Shown here: in pieces, positions 9,962 through 37,803 of the stretch
Position numbering within the stretch: position 1 is the first letter of the stretch
How the letters are laid out: every line of letters starts with the position of its first letter
Origin: Methanofollis ethanolicus
GTDB taxonomy: Archaea > Halobacteriota > Methanomicrobia > Methanomicrobiales > Methanofollaceae
Direction: 5' to 3'
NCBI RefSeq assembly: GCF_001571385.1
Contig: NZ_BCNW01000001.1
Coordinates: forward strand, 1,054,001 to 1,118,000
DNA length: 64,000 nucleotides
The notes under the pieces: model-generated
Seen by the model: only the letters and a program-made list of their open reading frames with translations
Databases searched by the model: none
What the model was told of the DNA's origin: nothing
Translations under genes and position numbers: made by a program

Positions 9962-10642
9962 TCACTCCTTCCGGTTTCTCCCGATGTAAAATCCGGTGAT
10001 ACATGCAATGACGACGAGCGATAGCGCCGCCGCCGTCCAGATGATCGTGTTCAGGTCGCCGGGTGATTCAACGACCGGTCCGGCGGTGCCGAGGGGTCCG
10101 GGGGTCTGAACTCCCGCGGTGGCGGCAGGGGCCGGGGGCAGGGTCGCCGTGGTGGCGGCGGCCTCGAGGGCCGGTGCCGTGGTGATGGCGACCTGCGGGG
10201 AGGAGGGAGCACCGCCTGCGCCGCCGCCACCCGGACTGCCGCCGGGGCCGCCCGGCGTGGTGCCGCCGCCTGCCTGTACGCTCAGGTCAATGTTTCCGAG
10301 TTCGCCGGATCTGAAGACTGCGGTTTTTGCAGCTTTATTCCCGTTCACGGTGAAGGTGATGGTCTTGCCGATCGCATCCCCTCCGCCCTTGACGACAAGG
10401 CGGTCGTCGTCTATTTCAACTCCACCATAAACCCCTGTCCTGTCCGTAGTGAGTTTGCCGTACGATGTACCGTCGATAAATGCTTCGATCACTGTTCCTA
10501 CAGGTGCCGGGTTTCCGTTGATGGTTAACGTCCCGCTGAACTCCTGAGGGACGACCGGTGTTTCGTTGGCTGCTACGACGGTGCCGATCAGGGCTGCCAT
10601 CGCGAGGATGAGCACGGTGATTGCTGTTCTGCCTTTCATCAT
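9962..10642 (-). CDS. Secreted, membrane-anchored protein with Ig-like domain and Gly/Pro-rich linker
   Basis: 226 residues. Signal peptide (1-25); a compact beta domain (about 30-125; PVGTVIEAFIDGTSYGKLTT, VYGGVEIDDDRLVV), typical of methanogen surface proteins that hold an Ig-like carrier domain; a low-complexity Gly/Pro/Ala/Thr linker (about 127-195); and one C-terminal helix ending GRNRKE, consistent with anchoring in the membrane. GAGGG precedes the ATGATG start (10642/10639). It is the last gene of the three-gene surface-protein operon 15468-9962, 15 bases after the 1,185-residue protein. Confidence 0.8.
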   Translation of the reverse strand: MMKGRTAITVLILAMAALIGTVVAANETPVVPQEFSGTLTINGNPAPVGTVIEAFIDGTSYGKLTTDRTGVYGGVEIDDDRLVVKGGGDAIGKTITFTVNGNKAAKTAVFRSGELGNIDLSVQAGGGTTPGGPGGSPGGGGAGGAPSSPQVAITTAPALEAAATTATLPPAPAATAGVQTPGPLGTAGPVVESPGDLNTIIWTAAALSLVVIACITGFYIGRNRKE

Positions 10643-10657
10643 ATTCCCTCAAAAATT

Positions 10658-23742: not shown

Positions 23743-25677
23743 TTATACAGGTCTCAGTCTGATGGCCTCACGGTCGTTGTACCTGCGGATCAGTTCCTGT
23801 GCGATGCTGCTGCTCTTTGCCAGGTCGATCTCGCCCTTCTCGTTTACTGTTGCAGTAAAGAGGTACTCTTTCCCGGCAAAAACATCGACGATCGCCTCCC
23901 TGAATTCGGGGGCGACCAGGGTGAGATGCTTCTTCTCGACGCGGAGGCACAGGCCCTCGCTCGCGGGTATTTCCTCGGCGGTCTCCTTCACCTCCGGGGG
24001 CGGGAGCTCGGAACGCGGCCTGATATCGATCCCGATGCCGATCTTGTTTACGATCCCGGCGATATTCTTGCCGCCCCTCCCGATGGCTGCAGGGACGTCC
24101 TTGTCCTCGATATAGGCGACGGCCTTCGTGTCGCTCTTCATGAAGACATCGATAGCCCCGGCGGTGAACCGGCCGAGTTCACGCTGGACCTCCCGCTCGG
24201 TGACCTCCCAGGCGGTCTCTTTCTCCTCGGCTTCGGGTTTTTCTTCGGCAACAGGCTCGGGGGCTTTCTCTTCCGCCTTCGCCTCGACCTTTTCCTCGAC
24301 CTTCTTCGCTGGTGCCTTCTTTTCGGCGCCGTTCCCTGTCGGCATCACGATCGTCTCGCCCTCGTACTTGAAGATCTCGAAGGCGATCCTGCCGGTCACC
24401 GCGTCGCGCACGGTCGTCACCGGCCTGATGTGCAGACCCGGGTCCATGCCCTCGGGCACCTTTATCGAGAAGCTGACATCGTAGACCCTGGTGATCTCGC
24501 CGTTGTCCACGTAGATGATGGTGTTTATGATCTGGGGCAGGACGCTCGGCTCGACCCGGCCGAAGAAACGCTGGATTGCGTCCTTCACCTCCATCGCATG
24601 GATCACGCCGACCATGCCGACGCCGGCAAGGCGCATGTCGGCAAAGACACGGAAGTCCTCGTTCTTCCGCAGTTCGTCGAAGACCACGTAGTCGGGCCGC
24701 ACGAGCAGAAGCACCTCGGCGGTGTTCTCCATGCTCCCTTCAAGGGCGGTGTACTGGGTGATGTTGTCAGGCACCTGGAGGTCGCGCGGGGCCTCCATCG
24801 TCTTGACGATAAACTCTTTATCGGCAAGGAAGGTGGCGACGCTCTGGGCGAGCGTGCTCTTCCCGGCACCCGGCGGCCCGGCAATGAGAACGCCCTGACG
24901 GACGCCCGTGATCCGCTCCTTGATCTGGTCTGCCATCGCGTAGTTTTCGAGTGCCACGTCACGGATCGGCCTGACCGCCGTAATCTCCATCCCGTCGGAG
25001 AAGGGCCGCCGGGCGATCGCGATCCTGATCGATCCGATCTGCACCACGGTGATGCCGCGGCGCTCGATCTCGATGAAACCGTCTGGGTCGCGCTTTGCCC
25101 GTTCCAGCACCTCCTGTGCCATGGTGCGGAGTTCGTACTCGTTCATCGGGCTGTCGCGGAGCTGGACCAGACGCAGGTCCTTCATCGTCCCTTTTCTTGC
25201 CATCGGCGGGACGCGCTCCTTAAGATGGACGGCGATCGTCTCCTCGTCGAAGTACTGATCGAGCATGAGAGGGGTACACTCCCCGACCTGGGGCTTCAGG
25301 TACATGACGTCGATCCCTTTCGCCTTCGCCACCTCTGACTGGACGACATCGCTCGTGACGAACCTTGCGTCATATTCGATGGCGACGTTCCTGATCAGGG
25401 CGTCGATCTCGCCGCCGCTTGCGAGTTTGACCTGGCTGAGGCTCGGGCGTTCCCCCACATATCGGAGTTCTATAGTCCCCTCGCCTGCCATTCTGGAGAG
25501 GTTCTGCAGTTCTGTCAGACCGGAGAAACCGATCTCGCGGCCCTGGTTTGCCTGGGCCTCGAGCTCAGCAACGACCGCTTCCGGAATGATTATTGTCGAC
25601 CCTGTATATTCACCGGTTTTTATCATCTGGGTGATGCGTCCGTCTATGACGACACTTGTATCAGGCACTATTTTCAT
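23743..25677 (-). CDS. PIN-domain ATPase with KH domain (PINA-like)
   Basis: 644 residues. The N-terminal PIN domain has acidic residues at VPDTSVVIDGR (4-14), GGEIDALI (88-95) and ARFVTSDVV (104-112). A PilT/VirB11-like ATPase core follows with Walker A GPPGAGKS (267-274), then an Ala/Glu/Lys-rich linker (about 455-500) and a KH-type GRGGKN loop (about 545). The Sulfolobus homologue, PINA, is a hexameric ATPase that interacts with Holliday-junction resolvase and promotes branch migration. It follows hisI by 27 bases and precedes leuS by 26. GGTGAA precedes the ATG. Confidence 0.92.
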   Translation of the reverse strand: MKIVPDTSVVIDGRITQMIKTGEYTGSTIIIPEAVVAELEAQANQGREIGFSGLTELQNLSRMAGEGTIELRYVGERPSLSQVKLASGGEIDALIRNVAIEYDARFVTSDVVQSEVAKAKGIDVMYLKPQVGECTPLMLDQYFDEETIAVHLKERVPPMARKGTMKDLRLVQLRDSPMNEYELRTMAQEVLERAKRDPDGFIEIERRGITVVQIGSIRIAIARRPFSDGMEITAVRPIRDVALENYAMADQIKERITGVRQGVLIAGPPGAGKSTLAQSVATFLADKEFIVKTMEAPRDLQVPDNITQYTALEGSMENTAEVLLLVRPDYVVFDELRKNEDFRVFADMRLAGVGMVGVIHAMEVKDAIQRFFGRVEPSVLPQIINTIIYVDNGEITRVYDVSFSIKVPEGMDPGLHIRPVTTVRDAVTGRIAFEIFKYEGETIVMPTGNGAEKKAPAKKVEEKVEAKAEEKAPEPVAEEKPEAEEKETAWEVTEREVQRELGRFTAGAIDVFMKSDTKAVAYIEDKDVPAAIGRGGKNIAGIVNKIGIGIDIRPRSELPPPEVKETAEEIPASEGLCLRVEKKHLTLVAPEFREAIVDVFAGKEYLFTATVNEKGEIDLAKSSSIAQELIRRYNDREAIRLRPV

Positions 25678-26071: not shown

Positions 26072-26866
26072 TCACACTCCTGCAAGTACCTTTATGATCA
26101 TAAAGAGCAGGTCGCCGATAAAAAGTGCCGTGACGAAACCGGCGGTGATCGGGATGATGAAGGGGACGGCATAACTGATCCAGACTCTGCCTGCCTTTCT
26201 GTACAGGGCGAGTTCCTGCGCGTAGCGCTCGGGGTGCTCGCGCAGATCCTTCGTGTACATCCGCCTTTCGCCGCCCTGCACAGTCCGCCGCAGGGACTCG
26301 CGGATCGTGAGGAAGCGGCGGGTGATCGTCATGTCCTCCTCCTCGGTGATCTCCTCCATCACAAAGCCGAAATGGTTCCTGATATCTTTCCCTTCCACCG
26401 GATAGCCGAAGAACATGTACGGGAAGGGCGCCCTGTTCCCCTTCACGATATTATACACGCAGAGGGCGAGGGGCGCGACGAGGTTGAGGAGGAGGGCGTC
26501 TGTGATCACGGAGAAGGGAAAGAAACCCATGGGTGGGACGCCGAGCAGCGGTTCGATTGGGAAGGCCGGGATGCAGAGGGAAAGAAAGATCAGGGCCCAG
26601 GCATCGGCGCCGCCGAAGAGGTGGAGCATGCCGAAGGTATAGAAGACGGCGGCAAAGATCAGGGAGAGCGCGAGGAAGTACAGGGCCGTCCCGGAAAGGC
26701 CTCCGGCGAGGAGGCCTGCGTAAAATATGATGGCAGAGGGCCCTGCCACTATAAGCATCGGGTACCAGGTGCGGAAAGGCACCCGCCGTTCACGGTGATC
26801 GAGCATCGATGCGTAGAGAAGCGTTGCACCCACAGCAAGAGATGCGATGACAAGAGGAAGTATCAT
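26072..26866 (-). CDS. A24 family prepilin peptidase
   Basis: 264 residues, with six to seven membrane helices. The two catalytic aspartates are visible as MLDHRERR (D23) and FGGADAWAL (D88); the second is a GGAD variant of the GxGD motif, which I recall as common in archaeal members. A cytoplasmic Arg/Glu-rich loop (about 165-225) sits before the last helices. It should cleave class III signal peptides from type IV pilins or archaellins. It heads the hisI-PIN-leuS operon and diverges from the hydrogenase/pilus locus with a 112-base gap. No pilin gene is nearby. CTTAAAAAG about 30 bases upstream suggests a leaderless start. Confidence 0.92.
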
Positions 26867-26920
26867 GACTCATATTTCTTATATTTTCATCCCTTTTTAA
26901 GGCTAACTATTTTCAATACA

Positions 26921-26958
26921 TTTTAATACTGTGGGATAGGAGAATTGTATCATTCTCC
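26921..26958 (+). promoter_or_regulatory. Hydrogenase operon promoter with operator-like inverted repeat over the start site
   Basis: TTTTAATAC (26921-26929) is a TATA box that predicts transcription start near 26950. The inverted repeat GGAGAAT-N6-ATTCTCC (26939-26945 and 26952-26958) is centred on this position. A dimeric repressor bound there would block initiation, and in RNA form it could fold as a hairpin ahead of the first gene. Confidence 0.45.
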
Positions 26959-26978
26959 GTTTGAATCCGGTGGTGTGT

Positions 26979-27224
26979 GTGATAGAGATAACTGTCGATT
27001 CAACGGCCTGTAACGGATGCGGTCTTTGCGTGAAGGATTGTCCGATGCGGGTCTATGAACTCAAAGGAGGGATCAGTGTTCCTGTCCGTCCCGAGAACTG
27101 CATGGGCTGTCTCTCCTGCCATGAGATCTGCCCTGCCCAGGCACTGGAACACCGGGGGGTCTACCCCTCGAAACGTCACTATGTCGATATCCGCGTCTGC
27201 GAGATGCTCAATCGGGTGATCTGA
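26979..27224 (+). CDS. Small 4Fe-4S ferredoxin-like protein
   Basis: 81 residues with two clusters of cysteines: CNGCGLCVKDCP and CMGCLSCHEICP, the pattern of a 2[4Fe-4S] ferredoxin of the polyferredoxin/PsaC type. It probably carries electrons to or from the hydrogenase encoded downstream. I chose the GTG at 26979 because GGTGG lies just upstream; TTG 26961 and GTG 26970/26973 are alternatives. Its stop overlaps the start of the V4R gene (TGATG). First gene of the operon. Confidence 0.85.
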   Translation: MIEITVDSTACNGCGLCVKDCPMRVYELKGGISVPVRPENCMGCLSCHEICPAQALEHRGVYPSKRHYVDIRVCEMLNRVI

Positions 27225-27787
27225 TGGTCGACATTACTGCGGAAGAGATGAACAAACAGTTTCATGCAGGTGCGGTCTTCAAGGCCGAGGACGTCCCTCT
27301 CTCCTGCTCGCCGAACCCGAAGGAGCTCGAACCGACTCTCCACGGTGTCATGCATATGAACGGCATGATCATCAAGTCCCTGGAAGAGATCGCGGGTCGG
27401 GGTGCGAACGCCGTCACCTACCGCGCCGGCAAAAAGTTCGGCCATGAGACGGCGAAGTACTTCAGGAAGATCGACAATGTCGAGGAAGCCCTGCGCGAAC
27501 TCTCGTACATCCTCCACGGCCAGTACACCTTCGAACTCTGGAAACCCGAGGACAAAGAGAACTATGTCGTCACCGAGAACGGGGAGACCTTCATCTTCCT
27601 CGTCTTCCACGACTGCATCGTCCGTCAGACCCTCCGCCGCAACGGCATGGAGCAGGGCGGCCCCCTCTGCCAGACTCTGTACGGCTATGTGGTCGGCGCG
27701 ATTGAGGAGATCACCGGAAAACGGGCGAAACTGGAGATCGTCCACACCGGCCCGAATGCCTGCCTGAAGAAACTGATCCTGAAGTGA
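27224..27787 (+). CDS. V4R-domain protein (putative small-molecule sensor or hydrocarbon-binding protein)
   Basis: 187 residues, a stand-alone V4R fold: GVMHMNGMIIKSLEEI, TYRAGKKFG, a central helix, then FHDCIVRQTL and LCQTLYGYVVGAIEEITGKRAKLEIVHTGPNACLKKL at the end. V4R domains bind small ligands in regulators such as XylR/DmpR and occur beside B12 and tetrapyrrole enzymes. Cys at FHDC, PLC and NAC could bind zinc or a cluster. It sits between the ferredoxin and hydrogenase genes with overlapping start and stop codons on both sides, so it is made in step with the hydrogenase. Confidence 0.83.
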   Translation: MVDITAEEMNKQFHAGAVFKAEDVPLSCSPNPKELEPTLHGVMHMNGMIIKSLEEIAGRGANAVTYRAGKKFGHETAKYFRKIDNVEEALRELSYILHGQYTFELWKPEDKENYVVTENGETFIFLVFHDCIVRQTLRRNGMEQGGPLCQTLYGYVVGAIEEITGKRAKLEIVHTGPNACLKKLILK

Positions 27788-28713
27788 TGATGGTTATGAA
27801 GATAGCAATCGAAGAACTTGCAGGGTGCTCGGGCTGCACCATCTCTGTCCTCGATCTCCACGAGGCCCTTCTCGACCTGGTTGCAAAGGCCGATATCGTC
27901 TATTCCCCGGTGATCATGGATGCGAAAGAACCCCCTGAAGGCATCGACATCGCCTTCGTCACCGGGGCCGTCAGGAACGAGGAGAACGAGGCGCGCCTGA
28001 GACTTCTCAGGAAGCGGGCAAAGACCCTCATCGCCTTCGGCACCTGTGCCTGCTACGGCGGGGTCTCGGGCTTGTCCATGCTCGGCAAACAGGAGGACCT
28101 CTTTGCCTGCGTCTACCGCGGCGTCGAGACAGCGGACGAAGGGAACGTCGTCCCCACCGACGTCCCTCCCTTCCTGTACCGCGCCTTCGCCGTCGGCGAC
28201 CTGGTGAAGGTGGACTACTATGTCACCGGCTGCCCCCCGAAGGAAAAGTTCCTGAAAGAGATCCTCCCGGCTCTTGTTTCCGGGAACAGAATCGAACTCT
28301 CCAAAAAATCGGTCTGTTCCGAGTGCGACAGGAAGATGGGTGACGTCAAGGACTGGCACCTGAAGAGGCGCTATGAAGGTATTCCTGACCGCGAGCACTG
28401 CCTCCTTGGTCAGGGCTATCTCTGCCTCGGCCCTGTCACCTTCGGCCGGTGCAACGCCTCCTGTCCGCGCAACAACATCCCCTGCCACGGCTGCAACGGC
28501 CCCTCCCTTGACATTCTCAGGGAGCCCTGCCGTGACATCTACAATATGATGGTGAAGCGGATCGCCGACCTCACCGACCTCCCTGAAAAGGAGGTTGAGA
28601 AGGAGATCTACGACGTGGCCCATACTATGTATCCCTTCACCATCGGGAGCTTGATCATGGAAGACAAAGAGATCTCAAAGATCCGTGACCTCGTGAAGGG
28701 GGCAGGTAATTGA
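27787..28713 (+). CDS. [NiFe]-hydrogenase small subunit (MvhG/FrhG type)
   Basis: 308 residues from the ATG at 27787 (ATG 27796 also possible). The proximal cluster ligands are ELAGCSGC (C14, C17), GTCACYGG and TGCPP. A second half with CSECDRK and CLGP...CNASCPRNNIPCHGCNGP binds two more [4Fe-4S] clusters, as in group 3 methanogen hydrogenases. There is no Tat signal, so the enzyme is cytoplasmic. The start overlaps the V4R stop (TGATG) and the stop overlaps the large-subunit start (TTGA). Whether it is F420-reducing (Frh) or heterodisulfide-reductase-linked (Mvh) cannot be told, because neither frhB nor mvhD is present. Confidence 0.88.
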   Translation: MMVMKIAIEELAGCSGCTISVLDLHEALLDLVAKADIVYSPVIMDAKEPPEGIDIAFVTGAVRNEENEARLRLLRKRAKTLIAFGTCACYGGVSGLSMLGKQEDLFACVYRGVETADEGNVVPTDVPPFLYRAFAVGDLVKVDYYVTGCPPKEKFLKEILPALVSGNRIELSKKSVCSECDRKMGDVKDWHLKRRYEGIPDREHCLLGQGYLCLGPVTFGRCNASCPRNNIPCHGCNGPSLDILREPCRDIYNMMVKRIADLTDLPEKEVEKEIYDVAHTMYPFTIGSLIMEDKEISKIRDLVKGAGN

Positions 28714-30113
28714 CGCGGCTGACCATCTCGCCGGTGACCAGGATCGAGGGGCACGCGGAGGTGCGGATCGACCTCGACGAACAGGGCGAGGTATCGAGCG
28801 CCCACTTCAATGTCGTCGAACTCCGCGGTTTCGAGAAGTTCCTTATCGGTGCTGCTGTCGAGGAGGCGCCTCGGATCACCCCGCGCATCTGCGGGATCTG
28901 CCCCACCTCCCACCATGTGGCGGCAGCCATGGCCACAGACCAGATCTTCGGTGCGGAACCCCCGGCGACAGGCAGAAAACTCAGGGAACTCCTGATGGCC
29001 GGGCAGTACATCCACTCGCACGCCCTCCACTTCTTCATGCTTGCCGCCCCTGACTTCCTCCTCGGCGACGCCCCTGCCGAGGAGAGAAACGTCATCGGGC
29101 TTGCGAAGAAGGCCCCTGAGATCGCAAAGAAGGCGATCGAGGTGAGAAAACTTGGCCAGAGGATCACCGAGGCCGTCGGCGGCAAACCTATCCACCCCTC
29201 GAACGCCATTCCCGGCGGCATGTCCAGACCCCTCTCCGAAGACCAGCGCCAGACTCTCCTTGCCTCAGCACAGGCAGGCCTTGCCATTGCCGAAGAGGGA
29301 TGGGAGACGGCGCAGGGGATCATGGACGGCGTCGACCTCTCCCTCGGTGCGGTCGAGACGGCCTTCATGAGCCTCTCCGACAACGGGGTCCACAGCGTCC
29401 TCGGTGGTGCCGTGACCATCCTCGGAAAGGACGGTTCTCCCGCGGGATCGTTCACCGGTGCGGACTACGCCCGGCAGATCCGGGAATACTCGGAGGACTG
29501 GTCGTACCTGAAGTTCTGCCGCCTTGCGAACGGCGACCACTACCGGGTCGGCCCCCTTGCGCGGCTGAACATCGTCCGGTCCATGGGCACTCCGAAGGCC
29601 GATGCCGCCCTTGCCCGGTATCACGATACCTTCGGCGCCTGCACCCAGACGACCCTCGCCTACAACATCGCGCGGTACGTCGAGTTCCTCGGCGCCTGCG
29701 AGAAGGCCGTCGCCCTCCTCGAAGACACGGCCATCACCGGCACCGACGTCCGGACGCCGGTCACCGGCGTCGTGGAGAAGCGTGGCGTCGGGATCGTCGA
29801 GGCCCCCCGCGGCACCCTCATCCATGACTACGTGGTGGACGATCAGGGCATGATTGAGACGTGCAACCTCATCGTCGCCACCTGCCAGAATAATTACGCA
29901 ATGGACCGGGGTGTCGAGGAAGTTGCCCGCAAGGTGATCGTCGGCGGTGAACTGACCGAAGCCGCATCGAACAGGATCGAAACCGTCATCCGTGCCTATG
30001 ATCCATGCATCTCCTGTGCAACCCATGCCCTGGGTCGGATGCCGATGCGGATCCGGGTGGTACAGCGGTCCGGTAGCGGTCATGAGATCATTCAGGAAAA
30101 GGAAGTGAATTAA
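28710..30113 (+). CDS. [NiFe]-hydrogenase large subunit (MvhA/FrhA type)
   Basis: 467 residues. The four nickel-iron ligands are present: RICGIC (C61, C64) near the N-terminus and DPCISC (C433, C436) near the C-terminus, followed by ATH. The 28 residues after H439 are the expected tail removed by a maturation protease, so the enzyme looks active. It starts at TTG 28710 overlapping the small-subunit stop, with AGGT upstream. No maturation gene (hypA-F, protease) is in the window. It is followed by roadblock genes rather than frhB or mvhD. Confidence 0.92.
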   Translation: MTRLTISPVTRIEGHAEVRIDLDEQGEVSSAHFNVVELRGFEKFLIGAAVEEAPRITPRICGICPTSHHVAAAMATDQIFGAEPPATGRKLRELLMAGQYIHSHALHFFMLAAPDFLLGDAPAEERNVIGLAKKAPEIAKKAIEVRKLGQRITEAVGGKPIHPSNAIPGGMSRPLSEDQRQTLLASAQAGLAIAEEGWETAQGIMDGVDLSLGAVETAFMSLSDNGVHSVLGGAVTILGKDGSPAGSFTGADYARQIREYSEDWSYLKFCRLANGDHYRVGPLARLNIVRSMGTPKADAALARYHDTFGACTQTTLAYNIARYVEFLGACEKAVALLEDTAITGTDVRTPVTGVVEKRGVGIVEAPRGTLIHDYVVDDQGMIETCNLIVATCQNNYAMDRGVEEVARKVIVGGELTEAASNRIETVIRAYDPCISCATHALGRMPMRIRVVQRSGSGHEIIQEKEVN

Positions 30114-30114
30114 A

Positions 30115-30468
30115 ATGGAGATGCTCAAACAGATCTTGACGGAGTTTCTCAGGCTTGATGGTGTGACTGCTGCTGTTGTCGTCGGGCGGGACGGGTTTGT
30201 GATCGAGGACGCCATATCCGGCGAGATCGACACCGATGCCCTCGGTGCCATGGCATCGACAGGCATGGGTACCTCCGAAGCGATGGGTACCGAGCTCGGC
30301 AAGGGAAACCTCAATCAGATGCTTGTCGAACTGGAGAGCGGGCCTATCCTCCTCTCTCCTCTTTCCGAGGACGAACTCATCGCCATCGTTGCCGGTGGTG
30401 GTGCAAACATCGGCAGGATCCGGTACGAACTGAAGAAGAACAAGGAACGGATCATCGCAGCCCTGTAG
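30115..30468 (+). CDS. Roadblock/LC7 domain protein
   Basis: 117 residues, one complete roadblock fold: initial helix MLKQILTEFLRLDG, strands TAAVVVGRDGFVIEDA, a Gly/Met-rich helix (ALGAMASTGMGTSEAMG), then LVELESGPILLSPL and DELIAIVAGGGANIGRIRYELKK. Roadblock proteins form dimers that regulate small GTPases (MglB) or act as scaffolds. No MglA-type GTPase gene is present here. It starts two bases after the hydrogenase stop, so co-expression is strongly implied. Confidence 0.88.
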   Translation: MEMLKQILTEFLRLDGVTAAVVVGRDGFVIEDAISGEIDTDALGAMASTGMGTSEAMGTELGKGNLNQMLVELESGPILLSPLSEDELIAIVAGGGANIGRIRYELKKNKERIIAAL

Positions 30469-30478
30469 AGTACGTATC

Positions 30479-31198
30479 ATGATGTTGCCTGATGGGAAGA
30501 CTTTCGGGAGCATGACGGCCCCGCTCACCGAGGTGCTGCCATTTACCGAGGCGTTCCACGCCATTGTGCGAATACGCACCGACGACGGCGAAGGCTTCGT
30601 CCTCTCTGACGAGGGAAAAGCGGTAGCTGCCTGGTGCCGGGAGGGGGCAAAGGATTTGAGAGGTGGTTTTGCCCTCGCCCGTCTCCTTGCCGAATCGTCA
30701 CTCTCGTGCGAGCTCAGCAGGTACGGGAATGATGAATATGGCCTTGCCCTGGAGAGGTGCCGGGATGCGGGATACCTTATTGGCTGGGAGAGTCCGGACG
30801 AGGACGGTGCGGTCCCTGTAACGACGTTTCCCGAGGCCGAGGGTTCTGCCCCTGCAGGGTCCGCGGTGCCCGAACTGAACGAAGAGTCCTTACATCTCAT
30901 TCTCTCCCAGCCGGGAGTCGTCGCCGTATCCGCGTTCTATGAAGGTTTTGCTGTTCAGTCTGTCGGTGCGACCGACTTTGACCGCATTGCCGCCATCTCC
31001 GAGGACCTCCTCCGGGCCGGCCTGAAGATTGCCGATGATATGGAGATGGGCGGTCTCGACGAGATAATTCTTGAGACCCCGGGCGGAAAATTGATCATCG
31101 CTCCCTTCGGCGACCTCTCCCTCTGTGTCCTCACCGCAGCCAATGCCAATCTTGGTCTCGTGCGGGTCGCCCTGCGGAGCATCAGGTGGGAGGGATAG
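30479..31198 (+). CDS. Protein with C-terminal roadblock/LC7-like domain
   Basis: 239 residues. The first ~120 residues (DGEGFVLSDEGKAVAAWCREGAKDLRGGFALARLL) may be a ligand- or effector-binding region and are not recognised. After an Ala/Pro/Gly-rich linker (about 118-135), the second half has roadblock features: LILSQPGVVAVSAFYEGFAVQSVG, RIAAISEDLLRAGL, IILETPGGKLIIAPFGDLSLCVLT and ANLGLVRVALRS. It may pair with the preceding 117-residue roadblock protein. Start ATGATG at 30479, ten bases after the previous stop. Confidence 0.78.
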   Translation: MMLPDGKTFGSMTAPLTEVLPFTEAFHAIVRIRTDDGEGFVLSDEGKAVAAWCREGAKDLRGGFALARLLAESSLSCELSRYGNDEYGLALERCRDAGYLIGWESPDEDGAVPVTTFPEAEGSAPAGSAVPELNEESLHLILSQPGVVAVSAFYEGFAVQSVGATDFDRIAAISEDLLRAGLKIADDMEMGGLDEIILETPGGKLIIAPFGDLSLCVLTAANANLGLVRVALRSIRWEG

Positions 31199-31201
31199 AT
31201 C

Positions 31202-31789
31202 ATGCGCCTGCCGCGGTCAGGGTCTTCTGGTGCTAGCCTGACCATGCCCCTCAGGGCCGTCATTGCCGACTGCCGGAAGAAGGGCTTCACCGGTGCCGTG
31301 ACCTTTATGGTGCACGGCTCGCCGGCGTCTCTCCTCTTCAGGTGCGGTATGCCGCTCTGCGCGGAGTCTGGCAGGGCCACCGGCATCCGGGCACTTGAGG
31401 AGATGGAGAGAGTACTTGACGTCGTCACCGCAGAACTTTCCGGGTATTCTGATGTGGAGATCGGCGCCGCTCTTCTTTTTAACGATGCCTGCAGGGTGAC
31501 AACCGGGCCGCGTGATGCCCGGCCGGCGACCACGATCCATGCGGTGCGGGTCGGCCAGAAGAGCCGGTCTGCAACGGTGAAGGTGATACGGACGGTGGAG
31601 GCAGGCGACGACAGGTCGGCGACGCCCCCTCTCCCGAAGACCGGGGAGAAGAAGGACGTCCTCAACCCGGAATCGGTTACGGCCCTGAAAAAGATGCAAC
31701 AGAATTTCATGGCCGACGCATCCGATCTCCTTAAAGAAATGCACATGGGACACCTCATTGTCGATCCAGGAAACAGCCCGGATCAGTGA
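31202..31789 (+). CDS. Putative regulator with PATAN/DUF4388-like domain
   Basis: 195 residues. The N-terminal ~90 residues (ADCRKKGFTGAVTFMV, ASLLFRCGMPLCAESG, GIRALEEMERVLDVVTAELSGYSDVEIGAALLFN) have the layout of PATAN/DUF4388/DUF2226-type domains found beside roadblock proteins and response regulators. The second half is polar and probably flexible, ending in a helix (LKKMQQNFMADASDLLKEMHMGHLIVD). This is a recalled similarity only. GGAGGG precedes the start. A hairpin (TGGATCT/AGATCCA, 31790-31813) follows the stop and may end the first transcript. Confidence 0.65.
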   Translation: MRLPRSGSSGASLTMPLRAVIADCRKKGFTGAVTFMVHGSPASLLFRCGMPLCAESGRATGIRALEEMERVLDVVTAELSGYSDVEIGAALLFNDACRVTTGPRDARPATTIHAVRVGQKSRSATVKVIRTVEAGDDRSATPPLPKTGEKKDVLNPESVTALKKMQQNFMADASDLLKEMHMGHLIVDPGNSPDQ

Positions 31790-31813
31790 TGGATCTGATA
31801 TATTCGAGATCCA
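31790..31813 (+). terminator. Possible terminator hairpin after the hydrogenase-roadblock operon
   Basis: Arms TGGATCT (31790-31796) and AGATCCA (31807-31813) around a ten-base loop, directly after the stop at 31787-31789. No long T tract follows, so read-through into the MinD operon remains likely. Confidence 0.3.
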
Positions 31814-31859
31814 TCCTTAAATGATGGTTTAGGCTGCTCTATCGGCACGCGATAAATTA

Positions 31860-31875
31860 GGTATAATTAAATACC
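31860..31875 (+). promoter_or_regulatory. Promoter of the MinD-pilus operon
   Basis: TATAATTAA inside GGTAT-N6-ATACC arms. The TATA centre near 31866 predicts a start site near 31892, 18 bases before the TTG of the MinD-type gene. The symmetric arms around the TATA box could also be a regulator site. Confidence 0.5.
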
Positions 31876-31909
31876 ATCTTTCACAATCATTGGAGTAGAA
31901 GGTGTCGGA

Positions 31910-32695
31910 TTGATCAGGGCATTTACGATCGCATCGGGGAAAGGAGGGACGGGGAAGACAACGGTAACCGTCAACCTCGGCACCTCTCTTGCCCAGCTCG
32001 GGAAAGAAACCTACATTCTTGATGCTGATATCGGTATGGCAAATCTGGGCCTGGTGCTCGGGCTTGAAGACGCACCTGTCACGCTCCACGAGGTGCTGGC
32101 CGGGAAGGCGAAGGTGGACGACGCGATATATGAAGGACCGAACGGTGTCAAGGTGGTCCCGAGCGGGATCTCCCTCCAGGGTTTCCAGAACGCCGATCCC
32201 GATCGTCTGCGTGATGTGATGAGGGATCTCGTCGACCGCTGCGATTATCTCCTTGTCGATGCCGCCGCTGGCATCAGCAAGGACGGGGTTGTCGCCCTCG
32301 CCATATCCGACGAGGTCATCCTGGTGGTGAACCCAGAACTCTCCTCCATGGCCGACGCCCTCAAGACGAAGATCCTCACTGAGATGGTGGGGGGCGAGGT
32401 CTATGGAGCGATCATCAACCGTTCGGGAATGGAGAACACCGAAATCAGGAGACATTCTGTCGAGGACGTGCTCGGTGTTCGTGTCATCGACATGATACCT
32501 GAAGACCCGAATGTCCGCAGGTCGGCCGCGTATAAGACGCCGGTCGTGATCAAGTACCCTGCTTCCGAGGCCTCCCGTGCATTCAGGAGGATCGCCGCCG
32601 ATATCGCCGGTGTCCACTATGAGGAGGAGACCGAGGAGAGTAAGCAGCACTTCATCGACCGTCTGGCTCACACGCTCTTCGGGGGGGCCCAGTAA
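31910..32695 (+). CDS. MinD/ParA-family ATPase
   Basis: 261 residues. Deviant Walker A SGKGGTGKTT (9-18), switch I DADIGMANLGL (39-49), and LVDAAAGISKD as Walker B. It lacks an N-terminal extension. MinD/ParA proteins form ATP-dependent dimers and place membrane or polar machines such as pili or chemoreceptor arrays. The tail (EESKQHFIDRLAHTLFGG) looks like an amphipathic membrane-targeting helix, as in MinD. Start TTG 31910 with GGTG five bases upstream. First gene of the pilus-like operon. Confidence 0.88.
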   Translation: MIRAFTIASGKGGTGKTTVTVNLGTSLAQLGKETYILDADIGMANLGLVLGLEDAPVTLHEVLAGKAKVDDAIYEGPNGVKVVPSGISLQGFQNADPDRLRDVMRDLVDRCDYLLVDAAAGISKDGVVALAISDEVILVVNPELSSMADALKTKILTEMVGGEVYGAIINRSGMENTEIRRHSVEDVLGVRVIDMIPEDPNVRRSAAYKTPVVIKYPASEASRAFRRIAADIAGVHYEEETEESKQHFIDRLAHTLFGGAQ

Positions 32696-32791
32696 CATCT
32701 CATCATTTTCTGTGCTCGGTTCTGATCTGGATACCGACATGCTGGCGGTGAGCGGAACACAGAGCCTGGCAAAAATCCCGGGAGACGATCG

Positions 32792-33418
32792 ATGAAGATC
32801 ATGGACGTCATTAACGAGATCCTTGGTCAGTCGCGATACCTGGGGTCGTTCCCCTATTGCGAGATGGCACAGAGGGCCGGGTCCGAGGAAGGGGCCATAG
32901 GTGTCTTCGTCGATGGTCTCAGGAACTCGGTGGTCCTCTTTTCCTGCGGTGAACCCTCGGGGGCAATCTATGGGGACGAGGCCGGAGCGCTCTACGGGGA
33001 CCCCGCGGCACTGAAGATCCTGGAGATGGGTGAGTACGAACTCTATGCCGCGGAGAAGAGGATTGTCGATATGATCGTGGCGCGGTGCCGGGTCTTTAAC
33101 AGGAGCCATTTCCCGCATCAACTCACGTCTGACATCCCCGAGTTCGGGGGCGAGAGAAAGAGTCCCGGCGTCCTTTCGATCGTGGTAGAGAAGGAGAACA
33201 GTCCTCAGTCGGGGATGCGGGTTTCGATCCGGAAAGGGCGGCACGTGCTCCTGACCGATACGACAACCGGCGATGGCAGGGCTTCCTTCCGCCTCCTCAA
33301 CGGACGATATGATGTTGTCGTCGTTGACAGGGCGCAGGAGGTCTACACCTTTATGGTGGACTTTCATGGGTCCCGCAGTGAACTGGTCATTGAACTGGGT
33401 GGGATGATGGATGGATAA
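32792..33418 (+). CDS. Putative regulator related to the 195-residue protein
   Basis: 208 residues. The segment SVVLFSCGEPSGAIYGDEAG...AALKILEMGEYELYAAEKRIVDMIVARCRVFNRS lines up with LLFRCGMPLCAESG...IRALEEM...ALLFND of the protein at 31202-31789, so both probably carry the same domain. The second half (about 125-205) is a small beta-sandwich with MRVSIRKGRHVLLTDTTTGDGRASFRLLNGRYDVVVVD, typical of a carboxypeptidase-regulatory-like (CNA-B) fold. GGGAG precedes the ATG. Its end overlaps the GspE-type ATPase start by eight bases. Confidence 0.65.
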   Translation: MKIMDVINEILGQSRYLGSFPYCEMAQRAGSEEGAIGVFVDGLRNSVVLFSCGEPSGAIYGDEAGALYGDPAALKILEMGEYELYAAEKRIVDMIVARCRVFNRSHFPHQLTSDIPEFGGERKSPGVLSIVVEKENSPQSGMRVSIRKGRHVLLTDTTTGDGRASFRLLNGRYDVVVVDRAQEVYTFMVDFHGSRSELVIELGGMMDG

Positions 33419-35843
33419 AGGCAAACACGCGCAGCACCGCCTGCATGATATTCTGGATCGTATACGGGGAAATCCGACAGAGCAGACCGACGGTTATGTC
33501 TCTCCCGGAGAGGACGCGGAAAAAGGCGAGGACGACAGGGCCCTCACCTCCCTCAGGTCAATGGTGGAAGGAAACAGAAACCTTGACATTCATTCCATAA
33601 TCCGAGATGTCAGGAGCATGCACGAGGTTTCCGGCGCGGGTCCCACGGATCCGGCCGTTCAAGAGATCCCTGCGGTGAAAGAAAGCCCTGTTGCCACTCC
33701 TGCGGAACCCTACCCCGGCGAGGCTGAAACGGCTCCTGGTCCGGTCCCCGCAGAAGAGAAAAGCCCGGCACCGGAAAGCCGGGTGCCGGCTATCAACCTT
33801 GACGATATCGATGCGCTCCAGGGCATGATCGATTCGATCTTCGGTGACGAGGGTGCCACAACCCCCGCGGCATCCCGGCTCAACGAGGCGAATAATGGGG
33901 ACATTGCAGGTTTGACCGACATGCCTGCGGCGTCTCCGGTTACAGCCACCCCGAAAAAGACCCGGTGGTCGGGAGGGGCCGTTCCCGACGCCGAAGAGAA
34001 CGGAGAATCTGTCCTTGCCGGGATCACGGATGCCGAGGATATCGGTGCCCTTTCAGAACTGATCCTCCCGAAGGCCGCGACTTTCGACGTCGAAGAACTT
34101 GCACTCGACCAGGCCGCGCGCGATGCCCCGCTCGGGATGGGCTCTCTCCCCCCCGAGATCGACACCCTCTGGAAGGAGGCGTTCCCGACGATCACCGAAG
34201 AGGCACGGAGCGTGGTGATCGGGAAAGACCAGGAGAAAAAAGCCGGTTTCCTGGGGAAGATCAACCTCTTTACCAACCTTGTCCAGAAAGTGGAGGAGTA
34301 CGACCCCCGGCGCCACGGCCCTCTCGTCGACCTCGCCTTCACACCTGGGCCCGGCATCGAGGAAGTCGAACTCTACCCGGTCAACGAACCTTATGCCTAT
34401 ATCAGGATCATCTACGACAATGCCTCGCACGAGTACACCTACGAGGTGCTTGAACCGGTCCTCTCCGATGCCGAAAAAGAACTCCTCGGCGAGATCAAGA
34501 GCCGTCTCTTCGAGCAGCTCGACGTCAACACGAAGGACATCTCCAGAGATGGGGCCAGAAAGGTTCTCCGCGACCTCTCCGACGAAATCATCCAGGATTA
34601 CGGTATCAGCCTGACACCGGTCGCCCGCGAGAAACTCTTCTACCACATCGAACGCGACTTCCTCGGTGACGGTCTGATCGACGCCATCATGCACGACAAG
34701 TTTATCGAGGATATCTCCTGCGACGGCCTCGACAACCCGATCTTCGTTTTCCACGGCGGGTACGAGTCGATCAAGACGAACATGATGTACACCAATGCGG
34801 TCGAACTCGACTCCTTCGTCACCAAACTCGCCCAGAGGTCGGGGAAGTACATCTCCATCGCTGAACCGATGCTCGATGCAACGATGGTCGATGGTTCCCG
34901 TATCCAGATGACCCTTGGCAAGGAGGTCACGGCCCACGGTTCGACCTTCACCATCAGGAAATTCAAGGACGAACCTATCACCCCGACCGACCTCATCGAG
35001 TGGGGCACCTTCTCGCCCCTCTCCGTCGCCTTCCTCTGGCTTGCTGTCGAGGCGGGGAACTCGGCGATCTTTGCTGGCGGCACGGCATCAGGGAAGACCA
35101 CCGCCCTCAACGCCATCTCGCTCTTCATCCCGCCCCTGGCGAAGATCGTCTCCCTGGAAGATACGCGTGAACTGAAACTCCCGCACCCCAACTGGATCCC
35201 CTCGGTCACCCGTGACTCCTTCGACACAGGCGGCAAGGGTGCGATCGACATGTACGAACTCCTCCGTGCTGCACTGCGGCAGAGGCCTGAGTACATCTGT
35301 GTCGGTGAGGTCCGTGGCAAGGAGGCCCAGACTCTCTTCCAGGCAATGTCCACCGGCCACGTCACCTATGCGACCATGCACGCCGACTCGGTGGCGAGCG
35401 TCGTCCACCGTCTTGAAAACCCGCCCCTGGACGTCCCGAGGAACATGCTCACCTCCCTGAACCTCGTCTGCATCCAGGTGCAGGCGCGGGTCGGCGGCCA
35501 GCGTATCCGTCGCAACAAACAGGTCATCGAGATCCTGGACATCGACCCCCGGACAAACGAATTGATCACGAACGAGGTCTTCTCCTGGCACCAGGCCACC
35601 GACGAGATCAGGTATTCGGGCAAGTCGTACGTGCTTGAGAGCATCATGGAGACGCGGGGATGGAGCGAGGCACGGATGCGCGAGGAACTCAAGAGGCGGC
35701 AGGAGATCCTGGAGTGGATGCGGAGACAGAAGATCCGGCACTTCAAGGACGTTTCGAAGATGCTCATCTCGTACTTCCGCGACCCCGACGCGGTCATGGA
35801 CGTCGTACGGCATGACCTCTATGGAGAAGGTGCACCGCAATGA
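33411..35843 (+). CDS. Type II/IV secretion ATPase (GspE/ArlI/TadA family) with long disordered N-terminus
   Basis: 810 residues. Walker A is GGTASGKT (556-563); the Asp-box LEDTREL and Walker B/His-box regions (VGEVRGKEAQTLFQAMSTGHVTYATMHADS) are intact, so it is an active motor for pilus, archaellum or secretion assembly. Residues 1 to about 270 are Pro/Glu/Ala-rich and predicted disordered, unusually long for the family, which normally has a compact N-terminal domain; they may dock to the neighbours. It overlaps the genes on both sides, so translation is coupled. Confidence 0.93.
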   Translation: MDKGKHAQHRLHDILDRIRGNPTEQTDGYVSPGEDAEKGEDDRALTSLRSMVEGNRNLDIHSIIRDVRSMHEVSGAGPTDPAVQEIPAVKESPVATPAEPYPGEAETAPGPVPAEEKSPAPESRVPAINLDDIDALQGMIDSIFGDEGATTPAASRLNEANNGDIAGLTDMPAASPVTATPKKTRWSGGAVPDAEENGESVLAGITDAEDIGALSELILPKAATFDVEELALDQAARDAPLGMGSLPPEIDTLWKEAFPTITEEARSVVIGKDQEKKAGFLGKINLFTNLVQKVEEYDPRRHGPLVDLAFTPGPGIEEVELYPVNEPYAYIRIIYDNASHEYTYEVLEPVLSDAEKELLGEIKSRLFEQLDVNTKDISRDGARKVLRDLSDEIIQDYGISLTPVAREKLFYHIERDFLGDGLIDAIMHDKFIEDISCDGLDNPIFVFHGGYESIKTNMMYTNAVELDSFVTKLAQRSGKYISIAEPMLDATMVDGSRIQMTLGKEVTAHGSTFTIRKFKDEPITPTDLIEWGTFSPLSVAFLWLAVEAGNSAIFAGGTASGKTTALNAISLFIPPLAKIVSLEDTRELKLPHPNWIPSVTRDSFDTGGKGAIDMYELLRAALRQRPEYICVGEVRGKEAQTLFQAMSTGHVTYATMHADSVASVVHRLENPPLDVPRNMLTSLNLVCIQVQARVGGQRIRRNKQVIEILDIDPRTNELITNEVFSWHQATDEIRYSGKSYVLESIMETRGWSEARMREELKRRQEILEWMRRQKIRHFKDVSKMLISYFRDPDAVMDVVRHDLYGEGAPQ

Positions 35844-36763
35844 ATGGTTTTGAACGGTTCAGTTTCAACCTGCTCGGGCAGCGGGTGAAGGAAAAAAGGG
35901 AAGATTATGTTGAGTTGAGGAGCGACCTGATGCAGGCGCGGCTGAAGACCCCTTTCGAGGCGTACCTCTCGACAGCCTATGTCGCCTCCATCGTTGCAGG
36001 CCTTGGCATGGCAGTGCTGCTCGGTGCGATCACCTTCTTCCTGAACATACCCTCGATGATCTCCTATAAAGGTGCGTTGCCCTCCTTCTTTTATGGGTTT
36101 TCAGACTACCGTCTCCTCATCGGGACAACGGTCGTCGTCCTCCTCTCTCTCCTCATCTTCGGGGGATTCACCTACTTTGCCTTCTTGATCTACCCGAAGG
36201 TCGTGTCCGGGAACAGGCGGCGGAACATCGATGCCACTCTCCCGTACGCGATCAACTATGTGACGGCGATGTCCACTGCAGGCATCACGCCTGCCGAGGT
36301 CTTCAGGCTCCTCGGACAGAGCCCGATCTACGGGGAGACCGCTGTCGAAGCGCGGTACATCTCCCGCGAGATCGATATGTTCGGCAAAGATCTCATCGAG
36401 GCGATGCGGATCGCCTCGACCTTCACGCCGAGTGCGCGGATGAAGGAATTTTTCCAGGGTGCGATGGCGACGATCTCCTCGGGTGCGAACCTCACCGAGT
36501 ACTTCCGGAACAAGGCCGTCCAGTACAGCAACGAGAACCACCAGCAGCAAAAAAATTTCCTTGAGACCCTCGGACTCATTGCCGAGAGTTATGTGACGGC
36601 CATGGTCGCCGGCACCCTCTTCCTGATCATCCTGCAGTCGATCATGTCGATCATCGGCGGCGACTCGAACCCGATCTTCCTGATGATCATCATCTATCTC
36701 ATGGTGCCGTTCGGGAGTATCATGTTCATCATCCTGATCAGTTCCATGACCCCGGAGGTGTGA
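35840..36763 (+). CDS. Type II secretion system F family protein (first copy)
   Basis: 307 residues, inner-membrane platform of a type IV pilus-like machine. Two hydrophobic helices in the first half (about 48-80 and 90-122), a cytoplasmic T2SSF domain (YAINYVTAMSTAGITPAEVFRLLGQSPIYGE, about 135-250) and C-terminal helices (about 255-305). TadC/ArlJ-type halves often come in pairs in archaea, as here. ATGA overlap with the ATPase gene. Confidence 0.9.
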   Translation: MNGFERFSFNLLGQRVKEKREDYVELRSDLMQARLKTPFEAYLSTAYVASIVAGLGMAVLLGAITFFLNIPSMISYKGALPSFFYGFSDYRLLIGTTVVVLLSLLIFGGFTYFAFLIYPKVVSGNRRRNIDATLPYAINYVTAMSTAGITPAEVFRLLGQSPIYGETAVEARYISREIDMFGKDLIEAMRIASTFTPSARMKEFFQGAMATISSGANLTEYFRNKAVQYSNENHQQQKNFLETLGLIAESYVTAMVAGTLFLIILQSIMSIIGGDSNPIFLMIIIYLMVPFGSIMFIILISSMTPEV

Positions 36764-36765
36764 AA

Positions 36766-37803
36766 ATGGGATTCAAGTCACTCTTTAACGACCTTTTCAA
36801 CCGTGGGAGAACTGGCAACGCCCCGGTGAAGGCGTCCGAACTGGAAAGGTACGAGAACCGGGAAATGCAGATCGTCGATAAGATCGAACACCAGCGGAAG
36901 GCGCGGGTGGGCTTTGGACGGTTCATGAAGCACCCGGTCCAGGTGCTCACGGAAACGCCGCTCAACAGCCTCATAGCGACGGTCCCCTTCTCATTCCTCT
37001 TCTTTATCGTCGGTTTCTCCCTGATCATCGTCAATTACGGGTGGTCGGCCCTCTTCAACACCACCCTCATCGACGATGTCATCGTCTTTACCGTCCTGAT
37101 CCCGGTGATCCCGCTCGCAATTCTCGACTTCAGGGAGGGGAAGCGGGAGAAGAACCTTGAAGACGCGCTTCCGAACTTTTTCAGGGACGTTGCCGGGATG
37201 AACGACGCGGGAATGACCCTGCCCAATGCCATTCACATCGTCGCTGGAGGCGAGTACGGGACGCTCACGCCGTACATCAGGAAACTCGACGTGGACATGT
37301 CCTGGAACATCCCCTTTGTCGAGGCAATCTATAACTTCGGCCAGCGTATCGGGACTCCCCTTGCCGAGCGTTCTGTCGACCTCATCGCAAAGGCGAGCAA
37401 GGCAGGCGGCGACATCTCCGAGGTGCTGCGGGCGGCTGCGCGCGACAGTTACGAGTTCATCAACCTGAAGACAGAGCGGGCGAGCAACATGATCATCTAT
37501 GAGGTGATCATCCTCATCGCCTTCTTCGTCTTCCTCTTCGTGATCGTGGTCCTGGAGTCCACCTTCCTCACGACGATGGCCGAGGCCGGTGCCGCTGCGT
37601 CGGCGTCCGGTGCAGGAAGCCAGTTCATGGGTAATGTTGATATGGACCTCTACAAGAGGATTTTCTCCCACTCCGCGATGGTCATGGGCTTCTTCTCCGG
37701 CCTCGTCGCCGGGCAGATGGGCGAGGGTAGGGCGACGGCCGGTCTCAAGTTCTCTGCCATCATGCTCATCATTGCCTGGGCTCTCTTCAGGTTCGCGGTC
37801 TGA
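36766..37803 (+). CDS. Type II secretion system F family protein (second copy)
   Basis: 345 residues from ATG 36766, which has a full GGAGGTG six bases upstream; GTG 36760 is less likely. Two central helices (about 70-120), a T2SSF domain with LEDALPNFFRDVAGMNDAGMTLPNAI (about 130-230), then helices to the end. It should pair with the preceding F protein to form the membrane platform. No pilin, secretin or ArlX/ArlF gene follows, so the operon appears to lack its filament subunit. T8 at 37815-37822 ends it. Confidence 0.9.
   Translation: MGFKSLFNDLFNRGRTGNAPVKASELERYENREMQIVDKIEHQRKARVGFGRFMKHPVQVLTETPLNSLIATVPFSFLFFIVGFSLIIVNYGWSALFNTTLIDDVIVFTVLIPVIPLAILDFREGKREKNLEDALPNFFRDVAGMNDAGMTLPNAIHIVAGGEYGTLTPYIRKLDVDMSWNIPFVEAIYNFGQRIGTPLAERSVDLIAKASKAGGDISEVLRAAARDSYEFINLKTERASNMIIYEVIILIAFFVFLFVIVVLESTFLTTMAEAGAAASASGAGSQFMGNVDMDLYKRIFSHSAMVMGFFSGLVAGQMGEGRATAGLKFSAIMLIIAWALFRFAV

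Follow-up and report, generated by a model that had tools for sequence, protein, structure and literature searches.

A [NiFe] hydrogenase gene cluster joined to a type IV pilus motor in Methanomicrobiales: a possible hydrogen or redox input to pilus control

The closest described relatives of the locus considered here are MvhAG/VhuAG, the hydrogenase subunits of the HdrABC-MvhAGD complex (group 3c), and the PilB3/PilC3 type IV pili of archaea (clade 2; Makarova 2016, PMC4858521). The locus comprises 13 genes in a window of 64,000 bp (positions 1054001-1118000 of contig 1 in the 2.71-Mb genome of a Methanofollis-type methanogen), and in it genes for a ferredoxin, a V4R-like protein, the small and large subunits of a [NiFe] hydrogenase, two roadblock proteins (RB1 and RB2) and a PATAN-like regulator (REG1) precede those for a MinD-family ATPase, a second regulator (REG2), a pilus motor ATPase and two GspF-type platform proteins (Table 1). 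It is like MvhAG/VhuAG in its two subunits, aligned Fe-S cysteines and Ni-Fe cysteine motifs, but its large subunit lies on a separate branch, and ferredoxin, V4R-fold and (in the methanogens) roadblock neighbours replace mvhD and hdrABC. PilB3 loci are reported to occur without pilins, and a MinD-family ATPase is expected to take part in them (PMC4858521); the window likewise has an ATPase and two platform proteins and no pilin that two signal-peptide patterns could pick up, but hydrogenase, V4R-fold, RB2 and REG1 genes share the locus here, and the word "hydrogen" is absent from the main text of that survey, which reports roadblock proteins to be frequent in archaeal type IV pilus loci. In Synechocystis phototaxis, the PATAN regulators PixG and PixE bind the pilus motor proteins PilB and PilC (PMC7690835, PMC12288463), again a case of PATAN-like proteins beside a pilus motor and a sensory module; in the present locus the input would instead be a hydrogenase, the motor is archaeal, and no response-regulator domain was found on REG1 or RB2 with Pfam. 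The MglA/MglB polarity switch has the roadblock domain in common with the locus, and MglB is a structural match of RB2, but there is no MglA-type small GTPase among the 13 genes; a GTPase flanked by roadblock genes occurs on a contig of an ANME-1-like genome (L267). The HupUV/RH enzymes (group 2b) are regulatory, H2-sensing hydrogenases that act on a histidine kinase. The likeness to them is in the proposed H2-sensor role; the window enzyme is nearest to Vhu/Mvh and would act on a surface machine instead of a histidine kinase.

We read the locus as a type IV pilus control system with the hydrogenase as its H2 or redox input, a reading to which we give an even chance of being right. The cytoplasmic V4R/roadblock-type hydrogenase, the ferredoxin and the V4R-fold protein would respond to H2 or to an H2-dependent redox state, so that the enzyme would be the input of the system and not its output, and its state would be relayed by protein contact to RB1, RB2 and REG1. 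Together with MinD and REG2, these would control where the PilB3-like ATPase and its two platform proteins are placed or how active they are. RB1 is predicted to contact both the hydrogenase and the pilus ATPase. The pilins would be supplied by other parts of the genome, and the output would be attachment or surface motility that depends on H2. MinD proteins are reported to place surface and motility machines in Haloferax (PMC11588486). The broader proposal, that a class of hydrogenases annotated as Mvh is sensory, is wired through V4R-fold, roadblock/PATAN and MinD proteins to a pilus motor for H2-directed attachment or motility, and was joined to such motors separately in Methanomicrobiales and in ANME-1-like archaea, is put forward tentatively, as plausible but somewhat doubtful. 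All the parts belong to families already known. The literature searched (titles and the openings of abstracts, with subscription papers mostly outside) offers no example of pilus control with a hydrogenase in its input slot, and no paper in it connects pilus, roadblock or MinD genes of these archaea with a hydrogenase. If true, the reading would supply a molecular route by which hydrogen-eating methanogens attach to or move on surfaces according to H2 and would bear on how syntrophic partners meet. It would also give a new assignment to the enzyme that passes for Mvh in Methanoculleus and other Methanomicrobiales, in which case schemes that feed HdrABC from that enzyme would need another electron donor.

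Changing partners of the roadblock pair and of the hydrogenase cassette

The company kept by the roadblock pair differs among families, which are numbered here f1 to f6 within the order Methanomicrobiales (f2 includes Methanogenium and f4 Methanoculleus), f14 being the Methanocella family. Full-length matches to RB2 among 294 genomes of the phylum occur only in f1-f5 and f14; other genomes of the phylum match it through single roadblock or PATAN-like stretches, and some genomes of the order have a second copy. RB2 adjoins the large subunit gene in every genome of this set that has one (26 of 26 in the order and four of four in f14). Family f5 has no large subunit, and there RB2 immediately precedes the pilus ATPase gene in all 15 genomes with an RB2 match (four further f5 genomes gave none). 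Four of these f5 RB1 copies beside the pilus ATPase are 75-80% identical to RB1 of the window, and the corresponding ATPases 59-60%. Of seven f5 loci that contain the roadblock pair, six encode a V4R-type protein between REG2 and MinD, and three a response regulator; the copy of the V4R-type protein in L157 has 368 amino acids and matches PF02830 at 3e-23, and the remaining copies are its homologues. The second ATPase locus of one f5 genome (L155) is without roadblock pair, V4R-type protein and response regulator. Paralogous PATAN/roadblock sets in the Methanofollis-type genome itself have as their neighbour a HAMP protein (L202) or a response regulator (L201). In the former (L202:9021-10666, about 1364.5-1366.2 kb of contig 1) the gene for a HAMP membrane protein is followed by a short roadblock gene and then a PATAN-roadblock paralogue, and the second RB2 copy of an f4 genome (L265) likewise follows a HAMP protein. 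The roadblock and PATAN proteins thus stay constant while their neighbours vary, and it is apparently the input module that changes. The V4R-type loci of Methanocella keep hydrogenase and roadblock genes, with no pilus motor within the 20 kb examined.

These arrangements also bear on the converse idea that the filament half serves the hydrogenase, either anchoring or placing it at the membrane or a cell pole or conducting electrons from a syntrophic partner. The tight packing of hydrogenase and roadblock genes (spacings of -4 to +10 bp from ferredoxin through REG1), the presence of a ferredoxin with an Fe-S-rich small subunit, and the placing of surface machines by MinD proteins in Haloferax would all suit it; however, f5 retains the roadblock-motor unit without a V4R-type hydrogenase, the Methanocella hydrogenase and roadblock genes have no motor within the 20 kb mentioned, and two signal-peptide patterns picked out no pilin in the window (a search that did not extend to haem proteins). 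We consider it quite improbable.

A second lineage likewise has hydrogenase genes at a pilus motor. In two ANME-1-like genomes (G438, locus L222, and G394, locus L192; drafts that are 56 and 74% complete), a ferredoxin-V4R-small subunit-large subunit cassette lies just upstream of genes for a pilus ATPase and a GspF protein, separated from the ATPase gene by 107 bp in L222 (measured to the shared start) and by 55 bp in L192. A 4-bp overlap of the large subunit and ATPase genes in L222, suggested by the longest frame, was rejected, since the start shared with G394 and G290 gives 107 bp. The MinD gene of L222 is divergent and on the far side of the cassette; the L192 contig ends earlier. These genomes are called ANME-1-like on the basis of the McrA protein of G394, whose best solved match is 3sqg (1156 bits vs 690 for the next), the ANME-1 McrA. 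In the sister genome G290 (87% complete), an ATPase gene whose product is 95% identical is adjacent to the divergent MinD gene with no hydrogenase between them (L290), and no large subunit match at 1e-40 is present in the genome; cassette-free MinD-ATPase neighbours recur in four of seven further loci (L292-L298). The exchange in the sensor slot and this second lineage with the cassette beside a pilus motor both speak for a functional link.

A contig of G394 (L267:1-6549) carries a roadblock-GTPase-roadblock group, a further roadblock gene, a gene for a 662-amino acid protein that looks PATAN-like by eye, and a MinD gene. At its edge lies a DUF7287 protein with a pilin-like N-terminus.

A hydrogenase branch outside the Hdr-linked enzymes

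Both Ni-Fe cysteine motifs (R.CG.C and DPC..C) are present in all 46 V4R-type large subunits of the tree set, and the cysteines of the small subunit align with those of MvhG (5odc). The large subunit resembles VhuA/MvhA, yet it is placed outside the Hdr-linked branches. In a first tree of 77 rows the V4R label had to change four times, once for L115, where the V4R gene is cut by a contig end. For a second (42 rows), five rows were dropped (four long-branch outliers and the Frh outgroup L200) and the Methanomicrobiales were thinned to ten; here the large subunit forms a clade with the roadblock-type large subunit of Methanocella (support 99/97), and the Hdr-linked rows lie elsewhere. The NCBIfam VhuA and VhuG models give the window proteins 391.7 bits (cut-off 800) and 241.9 bits (cut-off 450), respectively, and an Hdr-linked Methanocella control is also below these cut-offs (507 and 278.5 bits). 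Four V4R-type large subunits score 360-403 bits with the VhuA model, against the 507 bits of the Hdr-linked Methanocella protein.

The Methanocella family holds both types of enzyme, since all four of its genomes examined carry two such large subunits. The first adjoins hdrABC-mvhD in L183 and L184 (the L185 and L186 loci end at contig ends), and the second is accompanied by genes for ferredoxin, V4R-fold protein, RB1, RB2, a REG1-like protein and MinD in the order of the window (L179-L182). Two Mvh sets are reported in M. paludicola, MCP_2492-2493 and MCP_2773-2774 (PMC3146512), and from gene number against map position these would be the two types. The mvhD gene is absent from the window and from all V4R-type loci examined, and an hdrABC set is likewise not found beside the hydrogenase in them; three of the four Methanocella V4R-type loci are preceded by a lone HdrB-like gene. 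A further 20 large subunit loci from outside the order all lack a V4R-like gene, and in 17 of them mvhD or hdr genes are present. Among the matches listed, V4R-type loci occur beyond the order only in f14, in two Archaeoglobaceae-like genomes (g68) and in the two ANME-1-like genomes. The Archaeoglobaceae-like loci (L211:8622-12588 and L264:2789-6765) contain hydrogenase and ferredoxin genes, two short V4R-like genes and one divergent roadblock gene.

The enzyme might of course be an ordinary catabolic Mvh that delivers electrons from H2 to HdrABC through an MvhD encoded elsewhere, its adjacency to pilus and roadblock genes reflecting shared history or co-regulation. In Anderson 2009, Memar_1007-1008 appear as Mvh and mvhD is placed at the hdr locus (PMC2686161). 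The only FlpD/MvhD match of the Methanofollis-type genome is also at its hdrABC locus, MvhG and MvhA are among the closest solved relatives of the subunits, and the active-site motifs are intact. On the other hand, neither mvhD nor a full hdr set is beside any V4R-type locus examined, Hdr-linked large subunits are on other branches with the Methanocella family having both types, and VhuA model scores are lower for the V4R type than for the Hdr-linked Methanocella protein; a catabolic Mvh also leaves unexplained the V4R protein of f5 and the ANME-1-like cassette at the motor. We regard this explanation as rather unlikely. That the V4R-type hydrogenase, despite its Mvh annotation, is distinct from the Hdr-linked Mvh is part of the control-system reading and shares its evenly balanced standing, and a metabolic role may coexist with a sensory one.

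In-frame stops in several Methanoculleus large subunit genes raised the possibility of selenocysteine, which was rejected; in the two genes inspected (L017 and L024) the stop falls past the last conserved residues and is the normal end of the gene.

Gene order across Methanomicrobiales

In a sample of 199 genomes, large subunit orthologues turned up in families f1-f4, with none found in f5 or f6. Among the 72 genomes with a near full-length large subunit, the ATPase row lies within 12 kb of it in 27, is elsewhere in 40 (that is, among the matches listed it is not near the large subunit), and is not listed in five (two in f3 and three in f4). Six genomes with pieces or fragments of the gene (G055, G056, G062, G107, G134 and G159) were excluded from this tally; G106, counted as elsewhere, stops at a contig end inside REG2 (L121), and in G032, one of the five not listed, a fragment of the ATPase lies beside the hydrogenase cluster (L120). 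The ATPase is linked to the large subunit in 11 of 11 f1, 10 of 18 f2 and 6 of 8 f3 genomes. The initial annotation had predicted synteny in several genera, and this is borne out by the 27 linked genomes, which represent nine genera in three families.

The f1 and f3 loci have the order peptidase (minus strand), ferredoxin-V4R-small subunit-large subunit-RB1-RB2-REG1-MinD-REG2-ATPase-GspF-GspF, then SUI1 (minus strand) and CobQ. REG1 and MinD are missing from their usual place in the linked f2 loci. In f4 and the unlinked f2 genomes, the cluster reads REG1-small protein (membrane-anchored by eye)-MinD-ferredoxin-V4R-small subunit-large subunit-RB1-RB2 (seven of seven f2 and four of six f4 stretches), and 10 of the 11 clusters that begin with REG1 have a HycI-like maturation protease gene upstream (Pfam run on L067). 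The six f4 and seven unlinked f2 stretches examined showed no ATPase close to the hydrogenase; the peptidase and REG2-ATPase-GspF-GspF group stays at the old place in these genomes. REG2 adjoins the pilus ATPase in f4 and f6 loci too, and the A24 peptidase is near the two in most of the f1-f6 loci examined. The ferredoxin gene adjoins the V4R-like and hydrogenase genes in the uncut loci that carry a V4R-type hydrogenase.

Several observations weigh against a control system of the kind proposed. Hydrogenase and motor halves lie separately in 32 of 35 f4 genomes (the other three not listed) and in 8 of 18 f2 genomes, so their co-location is not obligatory. The unrelated flanking genes PIN-HisI, SUI1 and CobQ are equally conserved in position across families, which makes gene order alone weak evidence. 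The MinD proteins of the f4, f2 and f5 clusters group with the second copy of the Methanofollis-type genome (L201), not with the window copy. All catalytic residues of the hydrogenase are intact, as in a metabolic enzyme. The ANME-1-like and Archaeoglobaceae-like large subunits join the V4R branch with weak support (72/90), and several changes are needed in the 77-row tree. Finally, G438 and the cassette-free G290 show 91% identity (101 of 111 bases) over the 111 bp that lead up to the shared ATPase start; in G438 the cassette sits immediately ahead of this conserved leader, and the ATPase may retain its own promoter.

The first two of these points would also be expected if the halves were accidental neighbours, with an old gene order surviving in a slowly rearranging region, as HisI, SUI1 and CobQ are equally syntenic and the link is missing in f4. 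Yet the roadblock pair changes its partner between hydrogenase and motor, and the cassette recurs at the ANME-1-like pilus ATPase, against a cassette-free sister. We consider accident improbable. The suggestion of the initial annotation that hydrogen oxidation or sensing may set the activity or position of a surface filament is partly supported: the synteny and this recurrence are in line with it, and a flow of H2 information from the hydrogenase to the filament would fit the module swaps. The separation of the halves in f4 and the equally syntenic flanks weaken it.

Four f2 loci (L112-L114 and L121) have a second, diverged RB1-RB2 pair in divergent orientation between peptidase and ferredoxin beside the hydrogenase operon. 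In the Methanogenium cariaci draft (L101), the hydrogenase, ATPase, GspF and CobQ frames are split, probably by assembly errors.

Proteins of the window locus

The 13 genes listed by the initial annotation were all found where it had placed them (Table 1). REG1 and MinD are exactly 120 bp apart and MinD and REG2 96 bp, and the REG2, ATPase and both GspF genes overlap.

Table 1. Genes and other features of the hydrogenase-pilus motor locus (window coordinates)
Feature	Position	Strand	Evidence or remark
A24 prepilin peptidase (Arc_PepC_II)	26072-26866	-	Pfam PF06847 6.8e-25, PF01478 2.7e-6; divergent from head
2[4Fe-4S] ferredoxin	26979-27224	+	Fer4_7 4.4e-12
V4R/H-NOX/TRAPPC3-fold protein ("V4R-like"), putative	27224-27787	+	Predicted fold; Pfam V4R match absent
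[NiFe] hydrogenase small subunit, MvhG/VhuG-like	27784-28713	+	PF01058 5.2e-28; MvhG 5odc 1.2e-68
[NiFe] hydrogenase large subunit, V4R/roadblock-type branch	28710-30113	+	PF00374 9.2e-39; MvhA 5odc 2.1e-114
RB1, roadblock/LC7 protein	30115-30468	+	PF03259 2.1e-16
RB2, PATAN-like domain and roadblock domain	30479-31198	+	Robl (PF03259) over cut-off; N-terminal half matches REG1
REG1, PATAN/DUF4388-like regulator, conserved C-terminal HLI motif	31202-31789	+	PF14332 in relatives; alignment
120-bp gap, candidate second promoter	31790-31909		REG1-MinD spacing
MinD/ParA-family ATPase (minD_arch)	31910-32695	+	TIGR01969 342 bits, over cut-off
REG2, weakly PATAN-like N-terminus, CarboxypepD_reg-like C-terminus	32792-33418	+	Profile comparison; PF13620 in relatives
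Type IV pilus motor ATPase (T2SSE, FlaI/PilB3-like)	33411-35843	+	PF00437 1.9e-32
GspF/TadC-type platform protein 1	35840-36763	+	PF00482 3e-14
GspF/TadC-type platform protein 2	36760-37803	+	PF00482 4.7e-14

The label "V4R" given to the third gene holds for its predicted fold and not for its Pfam matches. The protein has no PF02830 match at E<=1, and 11 of the 15 family members match ATC_hydrolase weakly (1.1e-4 at best). A remote homologue from L211 does match V4R, at 1.1e-4, but below the cut-off. The predicted structure (predicted local distance difference test, pLDDT, 72) gives VIA Z values of 9-10 to Bet3/TRAPPC, the DmpR/MopR phenol sensor and the V4R protein MJ1460, with H-NOX also among the matches. 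Against 2oso the Z value is 9.0 with a root-mean-square deviation of 5.7 over 129 aligned residues, values to be read knowing that middling Z is common and that pLDDT is only 72. The model thus points to putative membership of the V4R/H-NOX/TRAPPC3 superfold, and V4R, H-NOX and ATC hydrolase are reported to be related to the methanogen domain MetOD1 (Galperin et al., PMC5847659). The alignment of the family has invariant cysteines C28, C131, C149 and C180, and the protein is among the more conserved ones of the locus.

RB1 and RB2 both exceed the PF03259 cut-off of 23 bits (59.8 and 28.0 bits, respectively), and the Robl match is found in all 18 members of the RB2 family. The N-terminal half of RB2 matches REG1 with 96.5% probability in a profile comparison, for which the alignments excluded an 873-amino acid open reading frame of L127 that contains RB2 as well. 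A fold search with the RB2 model (pLDDT 86) matched the roadblock half only (Z 16), with MglB among the matches (Z 14). PF14332 is matched at E<=1 by 8 of 15 REG1 family members (best 7.7e-4), the window copy itself having no match. REG2, which had been called a related regulator, does show a relationship to the PATAN-like part of REG1 and RB2, but no more than a weak one (77.7% in the profile comparison with RB2); three of 15 members match PF13620 (best 1.7e-7). The motor ATPase matches the PilB3_C family PF23989 at 1.6e-4 (22.2 bits vs a cut-off of 27) and the FlaI model with 415 bits, below its cut-off.

A gene at 23743-25677 on the minus strand of the window encodes a PIN domain fused to a T2SSE-like ATPase and in many Methanomicrobiales loci keeps its place next to HisI and the A24 peptidase; a pilus connection is not evident. 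The L127 frame noted above (10210-12831, f3) holds RB2 and REG1 together and is either a real fusion or a sequencing error. Extra genes lie between REG1 and MinD in some loci. One in the Methanocella family (L179:13126-13839) encodes a 237-amino acid protein with no family assigned, and those of L067 (6627-7148, f4) and L157 (6100-6615, f5) encode a small protein without a Pfam match, in which a single membrane segment and a C-terminal half resembling a roadblock domain can be made out by eye.

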